A model generated the notes under the pieces. The model was given only the letters and a program-made list of their open reading frames with translations, did no database searches and was not told the DNA's origin. Positions 1 through 24,712 of a DNA stretch of 28,525 nt are shown here, one piece after another (the first letter of the stretch is position 1; each line of letters opens with the position of its first letter). The position numbers were made by a program, and so were the translations under genes. Origin of the DNA: Candidatus Desantisbacteria bacterium CG1_02_49_89 (GTDB lineage: Bacteria; Desantisbacteria; UBA1551); assembly GCA_001871075.1 (NCBI GenBank), contig MNUP01000063.1, positions 1 through 28,525 of the forward strand, given 5' to 3'.

Positions 1-1352
1 TGCCTCGGTATACCGTCCTTAAAAATAAAGACTTTTTTGATCACTCCCTGACCCACAGCGCATCTCGCGTGCAGGAAAAATTTATTTCCCAGGGTATTGT
101 CAGCCGTGAAATTCCCCAGGCAGCATAGAAGGCTGTACCTGAATTTCTCGGTTTTTATTGGATTTTCGAAATAAACGGGATTTGACAGGGCGGATCTCCC
201 GTATTCATCCGTTACGCGCACCGTATACCACGCGGAGCCCTTCTCTTTGAAATCATAAAACATCCTGAACCTGTAATTCTTCTGCTTCATCAGTGACTTG
301 AATTCCTTCACTGTATTGCCGTTGCGTATAACCTCAATGCTGCTTATCCGGTTCAAAGCGAAAACCTGGACCCGCGCCGTGTATGTTTTTCCGAGTTCGG
401 GGATCACTGTGCTTCCGGGCGCTGCGCCGTCAACGTCGAATATGACAAATACCGGGCCGTCTGTGACGAAATTATTCCCGTTCCTGATGCATTTCGCGGC
501 GTTTTCAGGACCTGACAGCCCGTCGCTGCCGCAGGTATAGACCCTTTTGCTTCCCGGGCATACGGAGAATTTCCTCTCAAGGCACGCGTCTGTGCTCGCG
601 GTTCCCGGTATTCTTGCGCCCATATTAAGCAGGAGGAAATACATAAGCTGTTCCGCCTCCTTTTTGTAGCAGAAAACGTCAAAACCTTCCGGAGTATTCC
701 CGAGAACCACGTCGGAAAAGACCCTGACGGCTGTCAGCCAGTTCAGCGCCGGGATATTCCCGAACGGATGCGTCACTATTTTCATCCCGTCCATGACCGC
801 GTAATGCCCGTCCAGCGCGTGTTTTATCTCTTTTTCAGCCGTTATAAAAGGATTTTTACTTTTTAATTTTGCAATTTGCAATTTGCAATTTGCAATGTTA
901 TTTAAAATACTTCCCTGTTCCGTCCCGTAGTCCAGCCCTTCAGCGCGCAGGACAAGCCGTGCGTATTTCCAGTCAGGCGGGTTTTCCAGCCCGGGAACCT
1001 TCGAAAGATCGTCGTGGCAAAGGTGCCAGTGGTTATCCCCGCAAAACCAGCCCAGCTTCCTCATATCCGCCCATTTTTTTAGAAGGAATTTTTTTATTAT
1101 CGTCCTGCCTTCCGCGGCCTTTATAGACTCGCAGGCCGGCGCGTAATCAAAACCGCGCGATACTTCTATTTCTATCCTGCCCGGTTTGCACTCGACCCAG
1201 AATTTCCCGTCAGCGTAAAACCTGCTGCCGCTGCCGTAGGTCCTTCCGCTCGCGGACGTTCTTATGACATCGCCGGATCTTACGGTTATCCTGGCAGGGA
1301 TCTTTTTTTTCGTCTGCGCGTCCAGTATATTTCCAACTATTCTGCATTTCAT
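1..1352 (-). CDS. CehA/McbA-type PHP-fold metallohydrolase (partial, cut by window edge)
   Basis: An open frame runs without a stop from an ATG at 1352 to the window edge, about 450 codons, so the C-terminus is missing. Residues 1-70 look like a beta-sandwich (prealbumin/carboxypeptidase-regulatory type). The motif GDNHWHLCHDD at about residues 105-115 matches the metal-binding Gly-Asp-x-His-x-His start of PHP-superfamily CehA/McbA hydrolases. Further candidate ligands are THPFG and the later GTASTDA, which resembles the Gly-x-x-Ser-Asp-Ala/His motif. The family hydrolyses phosphoester or carbamate-like bonds and is often found near sugar-catabolic genes. The start has AGGA about 8 nt upstream. 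Residues about 152-166 are encoded by a heptamer repeat (GCAATTT x3-4) of the type otherwise found in the spacers, and the frame stays open through it. The exact substrate is unknown. Confidence 0.72.
   Translation of the reverse strand, partial: MKCRIVGNILDAQTKKKIPARITVRSGDVIRTSASGRTYGSGSRFYADGKFWVECKPGRIEIEVSRGFDYAPACESIKAAEGRTIIKKFLLKKWADMRKLGWFCGDNHWHLCHDDLSKVPGLENPPDWKYARLVLRAEGLDYGTEQGSILNNIANCKLQIAKLKSKNPFITAEKEIKHALDGHYAVMDGMKIVTHPFGNIPALNWLTAVRVFSDVVLGNTPEGFDVFCYKKEAEQLMYFLLLNMGARIPGTASTDACLERKFSVCPGSKRVYTCGSDGLSGPENAAKCIRNGNNFVTDGPVFVIFDVDGAAPGSTVIPELGKTYTARVQVFALNRISSIEVIRNGNTVKEFKSLMKQKNYRFRMFYDFKEKGSAWYTVRVTDEYGRSALSNPVYFENPIKTEKFRYSLLCCLGNFTADNTLGNKFFLHARCAVGQGVIKKVFIFKDGIPR
870..896. 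repeat. Heptamer repeat inside the CehA-type gene
   Basis: Three complete and one partial copies of gcaattt lie in tandem within the coding frame. The words aatttgcaattt and gcaattt recur in the spacer at 23488-23583. The repeat encodes a short polar stretch (Asn-Ile-Ala-Asn-Cys-Lys-Leu-Gln-Ile-Ala) between the metal-binding region and the conserved helix that follows. Confidence 0.85.
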
Positions 1353-1480: not shown

Positions 1481-2657
1481 TATAATACACAATTTGTAAA
1501 ACAATAACACCCACAACAACGATAATGCAGGCAAGATACGGAGCCCGCAGGGTGTAGTTCTGGGCGAGTATGCCCGCGATCAGAGGGCCCAGCAGGCTGC
1601 CGCTTCCGACAATGGATTCATGGATCCCGGTCCCGGAGCCTTTGCTTGACGCATCGTTCAGACTGTAATACAGGCTTGAAAAATACGCGACCCCGGCTCC
1701 GATCCCGGCAAGCGCGAACCCAATGAAAAAAAGAACATTGTTTGAGGAAAAAATAAAGATCAGGGACCCGGCGGCAATAGCCGCTTCAATAGCCAAAAGG
1801 AATGCGATCTTGTAATGCCACCAGGAAGAGCAGCACAGGATATAGGACGTGACCGCCTGCGACGCGGTTATCGTGAAAAGCATGAATCCCAGTATTTCCG
1901 GGGTGATCCCTATGTCAACCGCGAGTTTCGGGAACAGGAACCTTATTGCGCCGACCACGAACCACACCATGAAATTCGACATCCAGGCGATCTTTAAAAA
2001 AACGTTGGTTAGTTTGTTAGTTGGTTTGCTGGTTGTCTGGTTATTTGTTTCGAGGTTTTGCGGTTTCGAGGTTTCGTGGTTCAAGGAATCATCTTTTGAC
2101 TCTGACACGTTGACACGTTGATACGTTGACACTGCCTTATCTTCTTTCGCCATACTTGTAAAAACCGCTGCCAGCGCGCAGAACGCGGCGCCGATATACG
2201 GCGGGTAAGTAAGGCTTACCGCACTGACCATCCCTGATGCCAGGGTGCCGACGGAAATTCCCGCGCACCATGAAACGCTGAACAACCCCACAGCCCGCAG
2301 GACGTTGCCTTTTGAATTCTTCGCTATCCAGACCTCGATGCACGGCCAGAAAACAGCGGCGCACACGCCGTAGAAACTCACGAACGCGAAAAGCAGGAAT
2401 ATTGATCTCAGGGACGGCAGGACCAGGCATGCAGCGGCTGAAAGCAGCGCGGCAATAAAAACAAGCTTCTTGCTGCCCGTCCTGTCGCACATCCTGCCGA
2501 ATAAAGGCGTTAAAAATGTATAAAAGATCCCGAAAAGAAAACCGAACATCCCCAGCGCTAAAGGGCCCGCGCCGAGTTTTATGGCGATCAGCGGCACAAC
2601 GAAAAATACCATGCCTATCGACGCATCCATAAAAAAAGCCGCGAAATATAATGACAT
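1467..2657 (-). CDS. Major facilitator superfamily transporter
   Basis: 396 residues with about 12 hydrophobic segments, the usual MFS length and layout. The loop after TM2 carries GRMCDRTGSKK (residues 54-64), close to the MFS signature Gly-x-x-x-Asp-Arg-x-Gly-Arg-Arg. It probably imports a sugar or glycoside across the inner membrane. It lies downstream of the cytosolic GH106-like glycosidase, which fits uptake followed by intracellular cleavage. The ATG at 2657 has AGGAG 7 nt upstream. The central TM6-TM7 loop (about residues 175-219) is unusual: it is coded by three successive blocks of spacer-type repeat and is rich in Ser, Thr, Asn, Gln and Lys. The last residues and the stop lie in repeat element A. 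The substrate cannot be read from the sequence. Confidence 0.85.
   Translation of the reverse strand: MSLYFAAFFMDASIGMVFFVVPLIAIKLGAGPLALGMFGFLFGIFYTFLTPLFGRMCDRTGSKKLVFIAALLSAAACLVLPSLRSIFLLFAFVSFYGVCAAVFWPCIEVWIAKNSKGNVLRAVGLFSVSWCAGISVGTLASGMVSAVSLTYPPYIGAAFCALAAVFTSMAKEDKAVSTYQRVNVSESKDDSLNHETSKPQNLETNNQTTSKPTNKLTNVFLKIAWMSNFMVWFVVGAIRFLFPKLAVDIGITPEILGFMLFTITASQAVTSYILCCSSWWHYKIAFLLAIEAAIAAGSLIFIFSSNNVLFFIGFALAGIGAGVAYFSSLYYSLNDASSKGSGTGIHESIVGSGSLLGPLIAGILAQNYTLRAPYLACIIVVVGVIVLQIVYYRLQR
2008..2133. repeat. Three word-repeat blocks in frame within the MFS loop
   Basis: Forward-strand blocks are gttagtttgttagttggttt-type, gtttcgaggttttgcggttt-type and tgacacgttgacacgttgat-type. The last is the reverse complement of the word gtgtcaacgtatcaa that is tandem at 2675-2706. 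All three keep the MFS frame open. They encode about 43 residues of the hydrophilic central loop. Confidence 0.85.
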
Positions 2658-2971
2658 GAATCACTCCTAAAAGCGTGTCAACGTATCAAAGTGTCAACGT
2701 ATCAAAGTAAAAAAGTTTATAGAGTTTATAAAGTTTACATAGTTTACAGAGTATAAATCTCAGTAACCTCAGTACCCTCAGTGGCAGAACAGGTATTTCT
2801 CTGTGTCTCCGTGCCTCTGTGGTGATATTCAAAATAAAAAAGGAGACGGTTAAATTGTTTTCGTAGGGCAAACCTTCAGGTTTGCGGTTTCGCAAGGCTC
2901 CCTCCTATCAAAATTGGCGGGTCTTCGAAAAGCCTTGCCCTACATAAACCATACCTGTCTCCTTGCTAAAA
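2658..2971. repeat. Composite repeat spacer between glycosidase and MFS genes
   Basis: A 314-bp stretch with no credible gene. From left to right it holds gtgtcaacgtatcaaa twice (2675-2706), agtttata/agtttaca words (2713-2755), cctcagta words (2761-2785), the ctctgtgtctccgtgcctct phrase (2800-2819), and a nested inverted structure. In that structure the outer arms AAGGAGAC (2840-2847) and GTCTCCTT (2957-2964) enclose the inner arms GTAGGGCAA (2863-2871) and TTGCCCTAC (2935-2943). These in turn enclose the hairpin CAAACCT-TC-AGGTTTG. A closely similar GTAGGGCAAACC hairpin occurs near 28273. The structure starts 8 nt after the glycosidase stop codon. Confidence 0.85.
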
Positions 2972-5900
2972 TCAAATTTCCACGCCGTATTTGACAAAGA
3001 AATAATCGTCCTTCCAGTTCGCCTCATCGGTGAAATCGTGCGGCCCGACCCCGAAAAGCTCTCCCTGCTTATGGTGGGGGCCCAGAAGGTTGTGCAGGCT
3101 GTGCGCGAGCTCAAGCGTTATCTTGTTTTCGCCTTTTTTCAGGGCGTCCGTAATATCGAGCTTGAACGGCGGGAAGATCATCAGGCCTTCCGGCTTACCG
3201 TTTATCTTCACTGCCGTAACGATCGCGTTAAGCCTGCTGAATTCAAGGTTGTACCTGCGGCCCTTCTCCTTGTCGATATTAACGGTCTGGCTCAGGGAGA
3301 TCGTCCCCGCGAAAAAAGGATATCCCTGGTCCACCAGATCCCCGGTCACCAGTGTTTTCCGTTCAGGCACAAGCCTGAATTCCTTCCTGTCCTTATGCTC
3401 CACCGCAAAATCACCGACGATATAGCAGGACTCGAGCTCCACGCCGTCTTTTGTGTATATCATCGTCCCGGGCTTTATGGGAAGCCTGAAATCGCAGGAA
3501 AGCGCAACAGTGTTCTCTCCCATTTTCACGAATTGCCTGATGTCTATTTTTTTGAACGAAGTATCCGTCCAGTATCCGGTATCCCGGTATTTCACGGTTT
3601 TCCCGTTCACTTTTACGCCGTATATTTCGGGTTTCTCCATAACGAAGAACAGCCTTGCGTCCTCCGGCATCTCATAATCCATGTTAAAGTCTAGTTCCAT
3701 TTCAACGTTGATACTTTGACACGATGCCTGCCCGCCAACGCTTTCTGGGCGGGACACGTTGACACGTTTTTCCGCCTCCGCCTGCACCTTCCACACCGGC
3801 ACCTTCGACTCGGTCCATCCCTGATCCCCAATCCTGTACCTTCGGCAGTAGTCAAGGGTGAGCGCGTTCATGTCCTTCCGTTCGAAGGTCCATTCATTCT
3901 TCAGCCTGACCTTCTCTTCCTTTATCTTTTTTTCATTTGCCGGCAGGATCTCGCTCAGGAAATGCTTGAGGGCTATGCCTTTCCTCTCCACCATGATAAG
4001 ATGCGAGCCCGCGGGGCTGAAATCAAGCTCAATCTGTGTTTTGTTCCCTTTAACCCGGAACGGGATCTCGGCGATCTTGCCTGTAAAAAGGTCCCACTCC
4101 TCCGCTTTCCCGAGTGAATTCAGTGTTACAGTCGTGCTGAACTCCTTTTCCTGGTCAGTGTTGCACAGGAAAAATATATCAGCGTCTTCGGTTGTTCTGT
4201 GCTGGTAGTAGATAGCGGGAACGCCTGCTTTTTTCTTATCCGCAACAGTCACTTCAGGATCAAGCATCTCGTCCAGTAATACTTTCAAATTGTCTTTATT
4301 TGCAGGAATTACCTTTATACTACTAATAAACTCCTTTAATTCATCCGAAGCCTGGCAATCCACCATTGTTGGTGCGGGTTCTAACGCAATAACTTTACCC
4401 CCACTGTTCTTAAATTCCTTCAGTAGCTTGAATGTATTTTTTCTCAGTGTTATTGAAGACGGGATAATGACCAGCTCGTACCTGGATCCGCCCACCTGCA
4501 GGCGCGGCAGTCTTTTCATGAAAGCGCCGTCGTAATAACCTTTATTCCCGTCCATGCCCTTTGCAGGCTGTTCAACCCAGGAAAGCCGGGCGTATTTCTC
4601 CATCAGTTTTTCGTCCCCGTAATCATAATCCCTCTGCAGGGAGCAGAGGTCAATGCTCAGCCGCTCGAACGCGCTGCTCATTTCATTGCATTTTGCCGCG
4701 TCAAGCCTGCTGTACGCCACCCAGGCGCTGCCCATCGGATGCATCAGCAGGATATCGCATTTGTGCTTTCCCCTTGTAAGCATGTAAGTAAGGCGGGTGA
4801 AATAATCCTCGATCACCCTGTTGTATTTCCACCACGGCTGCTGAAAATAGATATTAGGCGGGAAGTCGCGCTTGCGGCATCCCTTCATTGAATAGAGCGA
4901 AAGGTGGTGGTTCAGGATATTTATGCCCAGGACGAATTCCCAGTCCCCTATCCATTTCCTCCCGGTGAACGAGAAATTCTGCCCGGAACAGCCGTACGTC
5001 TCGGAAAGCGTTCTCAGCCTGCCCAGCTGGTGGGCGGCGCTTGAACACTGTTTCGGGGTCATTACGTTTGAAATGTTGCGGCAGAGATGGTCTATGCCCG
5101 GCACGTGCATGTATTCGTAATGCGGCATTGCCGCCCCGATGCACAGGATCTGGCTTTCCAGCGTGTCCTCGCAAAGATAATGGCCGGCGTACCTTAAATT
5201 GCGCTCCTCGCACCAGTCATACATTTTCTTTGAATACGACTCAAGGAAAAGGTCTGTCGCAGCCTCCCAGTAATCATAACGCGCTTTCTCGCACCCCTCC
5301 CCCGGGAAGAAAAGAAGAGGCAGTTTTTCCATTATATCGTAGCCTTTCCTCTTCCTGAAATATTCCTGGAAGCCGCCTGTCCAGGGTATGACGCACACCT
5401 TTTTTGAAGGATCAGAAGGCGAAAAAGCCCCTCCCTGGAACGTGAAATAGTTCGGCTCATCCGTGAATATCCCCGGTATGCTTTTCCCGAACTCGCTGCC
5501 GAATTCCCTGTAATACGCTTCGTGGGTGACTTCAATGAAATCATCCACCGCTTCCGGGTTCATGGTGTCAAGGTAGGTCTGGTTATTGTACCAGGGGTTT
5601 GGCGGGCCTGTTATCACGCGCGTCGAAACGATGTTTTCTCCTTCAATAGTGCATTCAAGCCCCTTCATCTTGTTTTCGTCTTTGGCAGTTACAATACCGC
5701 CGGCAAACCCGGAAGGCCACCTGTCCTCATCATACAGCCAGGCACCCATCCCTCTTTTCTTCGCCTCGGAAACGCAGGTCCTTATCCTTTTCATCCATTC
5801 CTTGGTAAGATAAGGCGTGATAAGCCCGATGCGGGAATGCATAAAGAAACCGCCCCAGCCGTTTTCATCCATTTCCTTTATCTGCCTTGCGAGTTCCTTG

Positions 5901-5989
5901 TCCTCAAGGTCATCGTTCCAGGACCAGAACGGCGCTCCCCTGAATTCCTTTCCCGGCTCCTTAAAACCTTTTTTTATATCCTCCGCCAC
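2972..5989 (-). CDS. Large GH106-like glycoside hydrolase with C-terminal sugar-binding-type domains
   Basis: About 1005 residues. The N-terminal third carries a barrel-start signature (GAPFWSWND, then a Gly-Gly-Phe-Phe-Met-His segment, then WLYDEDRWPSG). This is typical of large uncharacterised hydrolases related to GH106 alpha-L-rhamnosidases. A middle segment (about residues 490-545, ELVIIPSSITLRK) resembles the Rossmann-like trimerisation domain of GH42-type enzymes. The last 300 residues look like two galactose-binding-like beta-sandwiches. There is no signal peptide, so it is probably cytosolic. I place the start at GTG 5989, preceded by AAGGGGGAA with good spacing; an in-frame GTG at 6013 is possible and lies beside repeat sequence. 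About residues 743-761 are coded by a spacer-type repeat insertion. The rhamnosidase specificity is a guess; the glycosidase call is firmer. Confidence 0.75.
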   Translation of the reverse strand: MAEDIKKGFKEPGKEFRGAPFWSWNDDLEDKELARQIKEMDENGWGGFFMHSRIGLITPYLTKEWMKRIRTCVSEAKKRGMGAWLYDEDRWPSGFAGGIVTAKDENKMKGLECTIEGENIVSTRVITGPPNPWYNNQTYLDTMNPEAVDDFIEVTHEAYYREFGSEFGKSIPGIFTDEPNYFTFQGGAFSPSDPSKKVCVIPWTGGFQEYFRKRKGYDIMEKLPLLFFPGEGCEKARYDYWEAATDLFLESYSKKMYDWCEERNLRYAGHYLCEDTLESQILCIGAAMPHYEYMHVPGIDHLCRNISNVMTPKQCSSAAHQLGRLRTLSETYGCSGQNFSFTGRKWIGDWEFVLGINILNHHLSLYSMKGCRKRDFPPNIYFQQPWWKYNRVIEDYFTRLTYMLTRGKHKCDILLMHPMGSAWVAYSRLDAAKCNEMSSAFERLSIDLCSLQRDYDYGDEKLMEKYARLSWVEQPAKGMDGNKGYYDGAFMKRLPRLQVGGSRYELVIIPSSITLRKNTFKLLKEFKNSGGKVIALEPAPTMVDCQASDELKEFISSIKVIPANKDNLKVLLDEMLDPEVTVADKKKAGVPAIYYQHRTTEDADIFFLCNTDQEKEFSTTVTLNSLGKAEEWDLFTGKIAEIPFRVKGNKTQIELDFSPAGSHLIMVERKGIALKHFLSEILPANEKKIKEEKVRLKNEWTFERKDMNALTLDYCRRYRIGDQGWTESKVPVWKVQAEAEKRVNVSRPESVGGQASCQSINVEMELDFNMDYEMPEDARLFFVMEKPEIYGVKVNGKTVKYRDTGYWTDTSFKKIDIRQFVKMGENTVALSCDFRLPIKPGTMIYTKDGVELESCYIVGDFAVEHKDRKEFRLVPERKTLVTGDLVDQGYPFFAGTISLSQTVNIDKEKGRRYNLEFSRLNAIVTAVKINGKPEGLMIFPPFKLDITDALKKGENKITLELAHSLHNLLGPHHKQGELFGVGPHDFTDEANWKDDYFFVKYGVEI
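3709..3765. repeat. Spacer-type repeat in frame within the glycosidase gene
   Basis: The forward strand reads caacgttgatactttgacac, then a small hairpin (CCCGCC and GGGCGGG arms around AACGCTTTCT), then gacacgttgacacg. The first and last parts are the ACGTTGACAC words seen in the MFS gene and at 2675-2706. The frame stays open, giving a peptide around RVNVS and SINVE between two beta-strands of a predicted sugar-binding domain. Confidence 0.85.
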
Positions 5990-6013
5990 GTCTTCCCCCT
6001 TAAATATAGTCAC

Positions 6014-11045: not shown

Positions 11046-11062
11046 TAATAACTCCTTATTTC

Positions 11063-11181
11063 TGATTACAACGATGAGAAGATCCGATTACAGCGATAAA
11101 ATCCTTATCGCTGATATCTTTCTTTTATCTTTGAAATCATCATTTAATCGCTGATATCGTCTTTTAAAAATCGCTGCCATC
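11063..11181. repeat. Spacer repeat element A, copy 2 (inverted relative to copy 1)
   Basis: The reverse complement of this block aligns end to end with 1364-1480, including the CAGCGATAAGGATTTTATCG core and the GATATCTTTCTTTTATCTTT tract. It starts at the TGA stop of the upstream oxidoreductase gene and ends about 18 nt before the next start. It can form the CAGCGATAA/TTATCGCTG hairpin. Confidence 0.9.
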
Positions 11182-12361
11182 AATTATTATTTGCGATCAC
11201 ACGGGTCCACTTGCCGTCCTTCACCGAACGCTCAACCGCGTCCAGCACAACCTGGCACCTGTACCCGTCCTCGAAATTAGGGTGCGGCTCTTTATTCTTC
11301 GCTATGCAGTCCATCAGGTCCACGACTTCGTGCACGAATGTGTGCTCCCAGCCGATCGTGTGCCCCGGAGGCCACCAGCCCGCGATATAAGGGTGGTTCG
11401 GCTCTGTTACCAGGATCGTCCTGAACCCCCTGGCGTAATCCGGGTCTTTGCGGGAGTAGAATTGCAGTTCGTTTATCCTTTCCAGGTTGAATATGACGCT
11501 GCCCTCGCTGCCGTTGATCTCTATGCAGTTCATGTTCTTGTGGCCTGCCGCGAACCTGGTAGCCTCAAAAGTCGCGAGTGTGTCGGCCTTTGTGAACCTT
11601 GCGAGGAAGATCGCTGCGTCATCCACCGTGACCTTCCCAATCCCTTCGGACTTGACCGTGCTTGTGATACCGTCGCTGGAAGTTGACCTTGGCCTTTCTT
11701 TTACGAATGTTTCGGTTGTCCCGACAACGCTGTCTATCTCGCCGACCCCGTCGCAGATAAGGAACCTGCAAAGGTCTATGAGATGCGCGCCGAGGTCACC
11801 CAGGGCTCCTGAGCCCGCTGATTCCTTCTCAAGCCTCCAGTTCAAAGGAAAAGCCGGGTCAACTATCCAGTCCTGCAGATAAACCGCGCGGAAATGGTGG
11901 ATCCTGCCGATCTTCCCTTCGTCTATCAGTTTCTTAGCAAGGACTATGGCGGGAACCCTGCGGTAATTGAAACCTATCATATGCTTGACCTTCGCCTTAT
12001 TCGCCGCGTCCAGCATTTCTCTTCCGTCTTTAAGGGTAAGGGCAAGGGGTTTCTCGCAGAAAATATGCTTTCCAGCCTTCGCTGCCGCTATCGCTATGTT
12101 GGCGTGCATCGCGGGCGGGGTTACAATATCTATCAGGTCAATATCATCCCTTTCCACAACCTTTTCCCAGGAAGTGCTGTATTCAGGCCAGCCGAACCTG
12201 GCGGCAGCGGCCTTCACGTCAGCCTCAGTCCTGCCGCACAGCACCTTCATTACCGGCTGTGCCGCGGGGCTGAAAAACATAGCCGCGTCCCTGTACGCCC
12301 GGCTGTGAGCCTTACCCATGAACTTGTAACCGATCAACGCCACGTTTACCTTCTTAGCCAT
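11180..12361 (-). CDS. Gfo/Idh/MocA-family NAD(P)-dependent oxidoreductase
   Basis: 393 residues. The N-terminal Rossmann segment is VALIGYKFMGKAHSRA and the signature is FCEKPLAL (101-108) with catalytic Lys104. DLGAHLIDLCRFL provides the substrate-pocket Asp and His. The ATG at 12361 is preceded by AGGAGGGGAGAG. The final TGA overlaps the first base of repeat element A. With the URO-D-family gene upstream and a second oxidoreductase downstream it forms a probable sugar- or polyol-catabolic operon, although word-repeat spacers separate all three. Proteins of this length with the HxxGWEHTF and Gly-Trp-Trp-Pro-Pro-Gly-His segment are common in glycan-degrading bacteria. The substrate cannot be assigned. 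Confidence 0.88.
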   Translation of the reverse strand: MAKKVNVALIGYKFMGKAHSRAYRDAAMFFSPAAQPVMKVLCGRTEADVKAAAARFGWPEYSTSWEKVVERDDIDLIDIVTPPAMHANIAIAAAKAGKHIFCEKPLALTLKDGREMLDAANKAKVKHMIGFNYRRVPAIVLAKKLIDEGKIGRIHHFRAVYLQDWIVDPAFPLNWRLEKESAGSGALGDLGAHLIDLCRFLICDGVGEIDSVVGTTETFVKERPRSTSSDGITSTVKSEGIGKVTVDDAAIFLARFTKADTLATFEATRFAAGHKNMNCIEINGSEGSVIFNLERINELQFYSRKDPDYARGFRTILVTEPNHPYIAGWWPPGHTIGWEHTFVHEVVDLMDCIAKNKEPHPNFEDGYRCQVVLDAVERSVKDGKWTRVIANNN

Positions 12362-12372
12362 CTCTCCCCTCC

Positions 12373-12480
12373 TAGATATAATTATGAGTGCTGAATTATG
12401 AATTATGAATCAACAACAAGGATTTTTCTATTTAAAATAAATTCCTTGACTCATAATTCATAACTCATAATTCATAATTG
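12373..12480. repeat. Inverted-arm spacer (AATTATGA words around an AAGGA core)
   Basis: The left arm is tgaattatgaattatgaatc, the core is caaggatttttctatttaaaataaattccttg, and the right arm is actcataattcataactcat with further aattcataatt. The arms are inverted copies and the core is itself bounded by CAAGGA/TCCTTG, so the block can fold into one long imperfect hairpin. It begins at the TAA stop of the URO-D-family gene and stops before the ribosome binding site of the oxidoreductase gene. The block at 24041-24127 has the same design. Confidence 0.88.
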
Positions 12481-13563
12481 TTATTTCAAGCCGCATAGAA
12501 CTTTGCGGCGCTCAATGTAGTATTTGTAGTTGTCAAACGAAACGTCTTCAGGGATCGCGTGGTCAACCAGGGGTATGAACCCGCCTTCGGCAGTGATCCC
12601 CGCAAGCCTGTTGATCTCCGCGTCGATCTCTTTTCTTCCCTTTGCCAGCGCCCTCTTGTCCACGTTGCCCCACATTATTATGTTCTTCCCGTAGATCTTG
12701 CGCAGTTTTACCGCGTCCATCCCCGCGGCTACTTCGAGCGGGTAAAAACCCGTGACCCCGCCTTCGATCCACAGGGGAATAAGCTCCTCGATGTTCCCGT
12801 CGCAGTCCACCCAGGAATGCCTGACCCCGTGCTCCCTCAGGAGCGCGGTGATCTTCTTGTAATGCGGCAGCATGAACTCCCTGAACATTTTCGGCGATAT
12901 CAGAGGGCCGGTCTTGTAACACATATCCTCCCAGAAACAGGCGTAGTCTATGTCCTTTACTTCGTCAAGCGCCCTGTGCAGGACCTTCATTGCGAAGTCA
13001 AGTATGAACTCGTTCATCTCGTGTATAAGGCCGGGGTCGTCGAAGAACATCACGCTAAGGTTCTCAACGCCCACCCAGTTGCGGATCCAGCCGTAGAAAC
13101 TGCACGCACCTATCGTCAGCGGGTAATCCCTTTTCTTCATAGTCTCTTTCCACTCTTTCCAGTCTGTTTCAGGCGGGTACCTGCACGGAGAACTAACGTT
13201 CATCCTTTTCCTATAATCCTCCCAGTCTTTCCTGGTTTTTATGGGATATTCTATCCACTGGGGCATCCCGAACCCCGAATATTCCTTGAACTGCTTCTTT
13301 ATTGAATTATCGCCGTCCCTGAAAACCCGGTACTTGTCGGTTTCTTCAAGCGTCTCGTATTTAAAACCGGGGATTATACCCAGGTTCACAGGGACCCCGG
13401 CTGTCCGTTCAAAACCGAAATATTCCGAGATATGCACGTCCTGCGGCAGGCCTTCTTTATACCAGCGCTCCAAACCTGTAGGCGAGTACCAGTCCATCCA
13501 GAACGGAACATGGTCCTGCTTCTTGAATTCAACCATTTTCCAATATCTTTCTCTTTCAGTCAT
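12481..13563 (-). CDS. Uroporphyrinogen decarboxylase (URO-D) family protein, probably not haem synthesis
   Basis: About 360 residues with the URO-D/methyltransferase-like TIM-barrel pattern: N-terminal KKQDHVPFWMDW, a helix with MNEFILDF, a central CFWEDMCYKTGPLISPKMF, then HSWVDCDGNIEELIP and a C-terminal MWGNVDKRAL. Members with this layout are common in glycan-degrading candidate phyla, next to Gfo/Idh/MocA genes. They lack evidence for haem synthesis; some relatives are corrinoid methyltransferases. Here the gene precedes two oxidoreductases, so a sugar-catabolic or demethylating role is possible. I chose ATG 13563, which has AAGGGG 7 nt upstream, over the ATG at 13587, which lies in a GCATATGGCATATGGC spacer repeat. 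The stop abuts a repeat spacer. Confidence 0.82.
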   Translation of the reverse strand: MTERERYWKMVEFKKQDHVPFWMDWYSPTGLERWYKEGLPQDVHISEYFGFERTAGVPVNLGIIPGFKYETLEETDKYRVFRDGDNSIKKQFKEYSGFGMPQWIEYPIKTRKDWEDYRKRMNVSSPCRYPPETDWKEWKETMKKRDYPLTIGACSFYGWIRNWVGVENLSVMFFDDPGLIHEMNEFILDFAMKVLHRALDEVKDIDYACFWEDMCYKTGPLISPKMFREFMLPHYKKITALLREHGVRHSWVDCDGNIEELIPLWIEGGVTGFYPLEVAAGMDAVKLRKIYGKNIIMWGNVDKRALAKGRKEIDAEINRLAGITAEGGFIPLVDHAIPEDVSFDNYKYYIERRKVLCGLK

Positions 13564-22805: not shown

Positions 22806-22893
22806 TCCTCTAATGTGATTACAGTGATTAGTAATGAGATTACAGTGATTATTTTAATATCACCGTAATCATAAGTTAAAAATCACCGTAATC
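22806..22893. repeat. Inverted-arm spacer (GATTACAGTGATT words)
   Basis: The left arm is gtgattacagtgattagtaa then gagattacagtgatt, the core is attttaatatc, and the right arm is caccgtaatcataag with aatcaccgtaatcattcc. The arms are inverted copies. It begins about 5 bp after the stop of the galactose-binding-like gene. The same words occur at 24747-24781. Confidence 0.85.
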
Positions 22894-24025: not shown

Positions 24026-24040
24026 TTTTCCCCCTAAATC

Positions 24041-24127
24041 AATTAGTTATGAGTTATGAATGAAGGAATTTAATTTGAATAAAATTCCTTGCTTTTGATT
24101 CATAATTCATAAATCATAATTCATAAT
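24041..24127. repeat. Inverted-arm spacer (AATTATGA words around an AAGGAATTT core)
   Basis: The left arm is agttatgagttatgaatg, the core is aaggaatttaatttgaataaaattcctt, and the right arm is gattcataattcataaatca then taattcataatt. It has the same design and core as 12373-12480. It begins at the TAA of the secreted protein gene and stops just before the ribosome binding site of the PC4-like gene. Confidence 0.88.
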
Positions 24128-24712
24128 TTATTTTACTTTAACTACTGCGGCGCTTGAGATCGCGAAGTCCATCCCGCCAGGGATCTCAAGGCGGATATCC
24201 GCGCCGTTGCAGTTGTTCTCAAAACGGGCGTCCTCGATATGGAAGGTCATCGTTTTCCATTTGCCCGTGTCTTCAAGCACTATTTTGTCCTCCGCGGGCT
24301 TCCATGTCCCCATCGGATAACCTTCAACCAAGCTGAATTCCTGGTCGGAAGAATCGTAAACGAGCCCTATCTCAGCCTCACCTTCATCCAGGTATTCGAT
24401 TATAATGTCCACCTTGGGGGTCTTGCTGTTTTTGAACGCCTTGTTTACAAGATTAAAATACATGTATCTTGCTGCATCCTGGGAAGCCGGGTTCTCTCCT
24501 GCCACCCAGCATTCCTTGCCGGCTTTGGTCCCGGGACTATGCTTTCCTTCGCCTGTCTCATACACAAACGCCAATCCTTTTTCCACTGGTTTCTTGCCTA
24601 AAACCGTCCATGCAGCGTTCGCTGCATCCTTCACGTATGAAGGCGCTCCGCTCTTATCCTGCGCACGCGCGCCTGCCGCTGCGGCAAGAACCGCGGCCAG
24701 CACTAAACACAC
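24128..24712 (-). CDS. Secreted beta-sandwich (carbohydrate-binding-like) protein
   Basis: About 194 residues, not matched to a named family. A signal peptide (CLVLAAVLAAAAGARAQ) is followed by a beta-rich domain with YMYFNLVN, VDIIIEYLDEGEAEIGLVYD, a Trp-Lys-Thr-Met-Thr-Phe-His strand and NNCNGADIRLE. This resembles the non-catalytic sandwich modules found in exported glycan-acting proteins. Start choice is odd: no ATG is in frame. GTG 24712 gives a signal peptide without a basic n-region and a poor leader. Reading from ATA at 24724, four nt after AAAGGAGG, gives Lys-Arg-Ile-Val before the hydrophobic core, as a normal signal peptide needs. An upstream in-frame TAA limits other choices. Confidence 0.72.
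   Translation of the reverse strand: MCLVLAAVLAAAAGARAQDKSGAPSYVKDAANAAWTVLGKKPVEKGLAFVYETGEGKHSPGTKAGKECWVAGENPASQDAARYMYFNLVNKAFKNSKTPKVDIIIEYLDEGEAEIGLVYDSSDQEFSLVEGYPMGTWKPAEDKIVLEDTGKWKTMTFHIEDARFENNCNGADIRLEIPGGMDFAISSAAVVKVK

Follow-up and report, generated by a model that had tools for sequence, protein, structure and literature searches.

How do short tandem words whose main home is between genes come to be read as protein inside a transporter? The question is raised by the window, the whole 28,525-nucleotide stretch analysed here, which is contig C48 of the Candidatus Desantisbacteria bacterium CG1_02_49_89 genome (2.48 Mb, 150 contigs, 93.5% complete). The MFS reading frame in this window stays open through three period-8 blocks (2004–2132), which encode about 42 hydrophilic residues in the loop from helix 6 to helix 7 (Table 1). 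A preliminary description had reported three word blocks in a row read in frame in this loop. The TRF arrays within the open PF07690 reading frame bear out the in-frame reading, but the blocks do not adjoin throughout, since about 21 bp between them (2082–2102) are non-repetitive. The match it had drawn between the ACGTTGAC block and the repeat upstream of the gene start (2675–2706) was also found, the two being oppositely oriented members of one word family. The 2103–2132 array has the orientation of all 11 intragenic period-8 arrays of the ACGTGTCA family, and the 2004–2047 block resembles a AACCAGCGAACC array at the end of topA (L249:14848–14882).

Table 1 Coordinates of word arrays, composites and their host genes in the window.
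Feature	Position	Strand	Basis
MFS transporter CDS, 396 aa	1467..2657	-	ORF call; PF07690, E=1.9e-37
Loop-coding insert, residues ~175-216, between helices 6 and 7	2008..2133	-	Repeats and homologue alignment
8-mer array, coding strand GTGTCAAC words, peptide STYQRVNVS	2103..2132	-	TRF; score-16 segment
8/16-mer array, GAAACCTC-type	2047..2081	-	TRF, periods 8 and 16
8-mer array, AACCAACT/AACCAGCA-type	2004..2047	-	TRF
Extragenic period-16 array, ACGTTGAC family, upstream of MFS start	2675..2708	-	TRF
7-mer array ATTGCAA, peptide NNIANCKLQIAKLKSKN, in frame in neighbouring ORF 3..1352(-)	853..896	-	TRF; self-match scan
Composite of ACGTGTCA words flanking a 28-bp palindrome (3726-3753), peptide RVNVSRPESVGGQASCQSINV	3704..3772	-	Recurrence in other genes
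GH106-like CDS carrying the composite	2972..6013	-	PF17132 match
Extragenic form: 7-mer array after stop codon, reverse complement before next Shine-Dalgarno	12380..12479	-	TRF

The nearest genome compared, G001, is the only other one of its order in the set. Over one alignment span the MFS loop comprised 86 residues in the window protein and 60 (26 fewer) in G001, with flanks of 41% and 47% identity, and the same span comprised 61–73 residues in homologues from five other genomes. The extra length in this lineage amounts to 26 residues beyond G001, but the empty site is less clean for MFS alone because loop length varies among homologues. A scan of genome contigs with the MFS protein returned no relative. 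A low-confidence single-sequence model placed a coil at residues 184–212 between helices 152–183 and 213–241; we make no fold claim for MFS or for XerC, since the mean pLDDT of their single-sequence models was only 47 and 46, respectively. The lengthening of the MFS loop is probably without dedicated function and may well be neutral.

Tandem arrays were sought across 1.66 Mb, about two thirds of the genome, by a self-match scan at each offset (score of at least 12), and 1,350 genes, making about 83% of the sequence coding, were called with a hexamer model. Periods 7, 8, 9 and 10 gave 404, 113, 85 and 48 arrays, whereas the control periods 5, 6, 11 and 13 gave 0, 0, 6 and 6; inside genes the corresponding counts were 81, 19, 8 and 1 against 0, 0, 0 and 1. 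The preliminary description had called for a search for the words in other ORFs of the genome, and after merging, 98 period-7/8 arrays were found in frame in 74 of the 1,350 called genes (5–6%). By placement, 449 of 633 arrays were intergenic, 107 lay inside genes and 77 at gene edges. The inserted 7- and 8-mer arrays averaged 31.9 bp in length and comprised many different words. The 15-mer ACGTTGACACGTTGA occurred 295 times in the genome with up to two mismatches (reversed control, 2).

Extragenic arrays often ended just before Shine-Dalgarno sites or started right after stop codons, and 118 of the 290 arrays on the 3′ side began 0–9 nt past the called gene end. About 24% of intergenic array regions were inverted repeats (77/324; control, 9). 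Examples at 12362–12482 and 24026–24130 of the window, and at L254:13343–13502, consist of an array following the stop codon, a common inner core CAAGGAATTT ... AAATTCCTTG and a reverse-complement array before the Shine-Dalgarno site; such regions are possible hairpin, terminator or mRNA-boundary elements. Wider-spaced intergenic words, GTGATTAC/GTAATCAC and CAGCGAT/ATCGCTG, also occur near gene boundaries (window 22811–22851 and 11046–11182).

Intragenic and extragenic arrays share a vocabulary. Among the 90 intragenic arrays that were testable, namely those with an exact tandem unit, 75 had a unit also found in extragenic tandem words, where 8.1 were expected from shuffled units. Furthermore, a composite of words, 28-bp palindrome and words recurs in four unrelated genes (the GH106-like gene, leuC, gltA and one more), always in the same sense and encoding RVNVSRPxSVGGQASCQ or close variants. 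Both results argue against local replication slippage, by which sequence already in each gene would be expanded with nothing copied from elsewhere; slippage should also make arrays of periods 5 and 6, yet none exist. In favour of slippage, the long simple repeats of most genomes are most often heptamers, for which a polymerase slippage origin has been put forward (Mrazek 2007, as reported in PMC4679880 and PMC4692102), and words replace rather than add sequence in adhesin-like domains. Taken together, we regard slippage as an improbable explanation.

NCBIfam profile identification covered 30 array-bearing genes, most of which matched their profile on both flanks of the array. The hosts include LeuS, ProS, UvrA, TopA, XerC, XerD, MurF, RecN, TsaB, TsaD, ThiL, ThrC, HisF, RibD, AhcY, MiaB, V-ATPase subunit A, two LeuC-type proteins and a dihydroorotate dehydrogenase electron-transfer subunit, among others, so that the frames stay open through arrays in conserved genes. 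Relative to the profile, XerC was longer by 11 aa net and ThiL by 22 aa (two arrays together). Residues absent from solved structures numbered about 62 in HisF, whose insert combines words with several palindromes, about 31 in V-ATPase A, 8 in TsaD and 4 each in AhcY and RibD. Against distant homologues the net gain was small in AhcY, RibD and ProS, and close to zero in TopA, RecN and one LeuC. Housekeeping enzymes predominated among the 30 genes scanned, giant surface-like repeat proteins being a minority. Giant proteins of 898–5267 aa with repeated DTQTET domains are encoded at L117, L081, L150, L108 and L255. Word-bearing and word-free domain copies in the giant repeat proteins were equally long; words therefore replaced sequence there and did not add to it, which points to template switching or conversion, over simple insertion, as a possible route.

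Comparison with G001 showed both an empty site and re-used sites. At the second UvrA site a 26-aa insert is absent from G001, whose UvrA is 82% identical downstream. G001 carries other inserts, including hairpins (GGGTGGGT and GGGACTGTCC types), at the first UvrA site and at both ThiL sites; the two genomes have therefore filled the same permissive sites with different material. These UvrA and ThiL sites were mostly empty in more distant genomes. ThiL of a further genome outside the order (G002, locus L282) is likewise extended by a loop at the same position, in which a word-like CGAACGTCGAATGCCGAATGCCGA stretch occurs. The ACGTTGAC words had 157 matches in the present genome, none in G001 and never more than one in any of 288 other genomes. 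CATAATT/CATAACT words had 199 matches here, none in G001, and 29, 15 and 10 in G191, G222 and G265, respectively. Loci from other phyla, 543 kb in all, carried period-7 arrays at about one tenth of this genome's density, mostly outside genes. Arrays of 7-mer words in the same style are plentiful in the distant genomes G191, G222 and G265 and in the loci L206, L209 and L226 from Chloroflexota-type records, and one array (L225:679–712) lies inside an apparently coding ORF.

The intragenic arrays bear marks of selection on reading. The ACGTGTCA 8-mer family occurs in genes 11 times forward and never in reverse, only the forward strand being free of TGA, and outside genes 31 and 18 times, respectively. 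Read in a random frame and strand, an extragenic array is open 46% of the time; if a third of all lengths preserve the frame, we infer that about 15% of arrays landing at random would remain readable. Signal-peptide regions are enriched: 16 arrays fell within the first 40 residues of signal-peptide-like N-termini, called by a simple ad hoc rule and not by a trained predictor, against 1.3 expected by length (about 12-fold). A related set of 19 early arrays, in which a few of the N-termini are not signal peptides, encode more hydrophobic stretches than arrays elsewhere (mean GRAVY 0.14 vs −0.48, p = 0.02).

The preliminary description had further asked whether insertions come in multiples of three more than expected; a bias of this kind in insertion itself found no support, and selection suffices. 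The gltA gene (glutamate synthase small-subunit-like, L113:5199–6637) is split between Fer4_20 and Pyr_redox_2 by a word–palindrome–word composite, its halves lie in different frames and the array supplies the ATG of the second ORF. This is likely an out-of-frame insertion, a sequencing indel being the alternative, and the process is therefore not limited to multiples of three. Ten neighbouring gene pairs were checked as array-broken halves, and only gltA fitted.

We consider it quite improbable that a mobile palindromic element of the type found in Rickettsia (RPE) was inserted and that the words are its decayed remains. The four-gene composite, of which one copy lies in the window, and the inverted-repeat fraction of intergenic array regions are what such an origin would predict. 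Inside genes, however, only 2 of 98 arrays had an inverted partner (reverse-complement 9-mers within 150 nt), not above the control of 1–4, strict palindromes numbered only 3 inside genes and 5 outside, and the inserts consist of many different words with no single fixed element. Among possible movers, ten Y1_Tnp (IS200/RAYT-type) matches were found in this genome (G000; contigs C83, C13, C100, C38, C80, C114, C23, C111 and C51). These proteins might move the small palindromes; no link between the Y1_Tnp matches and the words was seen in the genome. For the words themselves, neither a target-site duplication nor a mobilising enzyme was identified. A reverse-transcriptase origin was rejected, as a single RVT_1 match at a contig end is too little to support it.

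The unit lengths of seven and eight are not multiples of three, so that one unit gained or lost shifts the frame, as would be needed for contingency loci in which copy-number change switches genes on and off. Such loci are found in surface or antigen genes, whereas the hosts here are mostly housekeeping genes (leuS, proS, uvrA, topA, V-ATPase) in which off-switching should be harmful, and the arrays are short and degenerate; we hold this explanation to be very unlikely. An assembly chimera or binning error at the MFS site can practically be dismissed, for although the assembly has 150 contigs and repeats can mis-join, more than 90 similar in-frame cases have intact genes on both sides and the frame would not repeatedly survive mis-joining.

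We therefore think it likely that lineage-specific tandem words, which are mainly intergenic, have about 100 in-frame copies kept at tolerant sites, the MFS insert among them. Words of 7–10 bp, at home between genes, would spread by copying or by slippage-assisted template switching, and some copies, either by themselves or together with small palindromes, would end up within coding sequence. A copy would survive only where it does not shift the frame over its whole length, no stop occurs in the strand and frame that are read, and the site tolerates extra residues; such sites would be linkers, signal-peptide cores and loops predicted to lie at the surface. Purifying selection would remove the other copies. 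In the MFS protein, the three blocks would in this way add about 25 residues to the loop that joins helix 6 to helix 7.

More tentatively, the lineage may have an active word-writing process through which core proteins keep gaining loops and signal-peptide segments at permissive sites that are used repeatedly, a reading that we regard as doubtful. If it is true, protein loops would turn over by DNA insertion and not by point mutation. The arrays amount to a natural insertion-scanning experiment on which loops of LeuS, UvrA, HisF, XerC, ThiL and V-ATPase tolerate extra residues, and the spread of short tandem words becomes testable. For annotators, word-encoded loops are not to be taken as functional domains.

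Rickettsia is the chief known case of selfish or filler repeats that code in frame. RPEs are about 150 bp long, and each of their ten families has an ORF encoding a conserved peptide (Ogata et al. 2000, 2002, as summarised in PMC10969869, which reviews the in-frame copies). As with RPEs, non-coding copies coexist here with in-frame copies in many unrelated, conserved protein genes (98 arrays in 74 genes), and one composite yields the same peptide in four genes. That composite is the sole exception to the lack of a fixed family of about 150 bp with a conserved peptide, and the intragenic arrays are not paired into palindromes or hairpins above control. Because the palindrome and fixed-sequence comparisons fail, we do not assign the inserts to the RPEs. 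They work like RPEs yet are mostly unpaired tandem words, as the preliminary description had anticipated in reading them as intergenic words inserted in frame; the shared units, the empty uvrA site and the unpaired arrays agree with it on this point.

The arrays also resemble long simple sequence repeats (units of 5–11 nt), in that tandem units exceed chance at periods 7–10 and lie mainly between genes beside start and stop codons. Small dispersed repeats are reportedly embedded in Nostoc heptamer arrays, as described by Elhai and colleagues in 2008; by that description a short palindrome nested in tandem words is like the composite at 3704–3772. To our knowledge, being read inside genes is not a feature of those repeats. 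Intergenic heptamer arrays of Xanthomonas and Nostoc, studied for G-quadruplexes and 89–93% intergenic in Xanthomonas (PMC4692102), share the heptamer unit, the gene-flanking position and lineage-limited words, with some inverted-repeat pairs in Xanthomonas. Repeats of coding regions usually have units of three (PMC4679880), unlike the 7- and 8-mers read in frame here.

The TAACTGA heptamers of Beggiatoaceae, Cyanobacteria and Bacteroidetes form arrays mostly beside start or stop codons, with 10 ORF-internal sets in stop-free orientation in one Beggiatoaceae genome, one of them where a surface loop is predicted in an RNA polymerase beta-prime-like protein (PMC4679880). Heptamer arrays at gene boundaries, some of them in ORFs and in stop-free orientation, are common to both systems, but the word itself differs, TAACTGATAACTGA having no match in 321 loci that include about two thirds of this genome. 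The Beggiatoaceae repeats are a smaller precedent: one word and about ten intragenic sets, mostly in hypothetical proteins or at protein ends, compared with many words here, in the middle of core enzymes and in signal-peptide regions. The present arrays enter 5–6% of called genes, with essential enzymes and signal-peptide regions among their sites, and two related genomes hold different inserts at the same sites.
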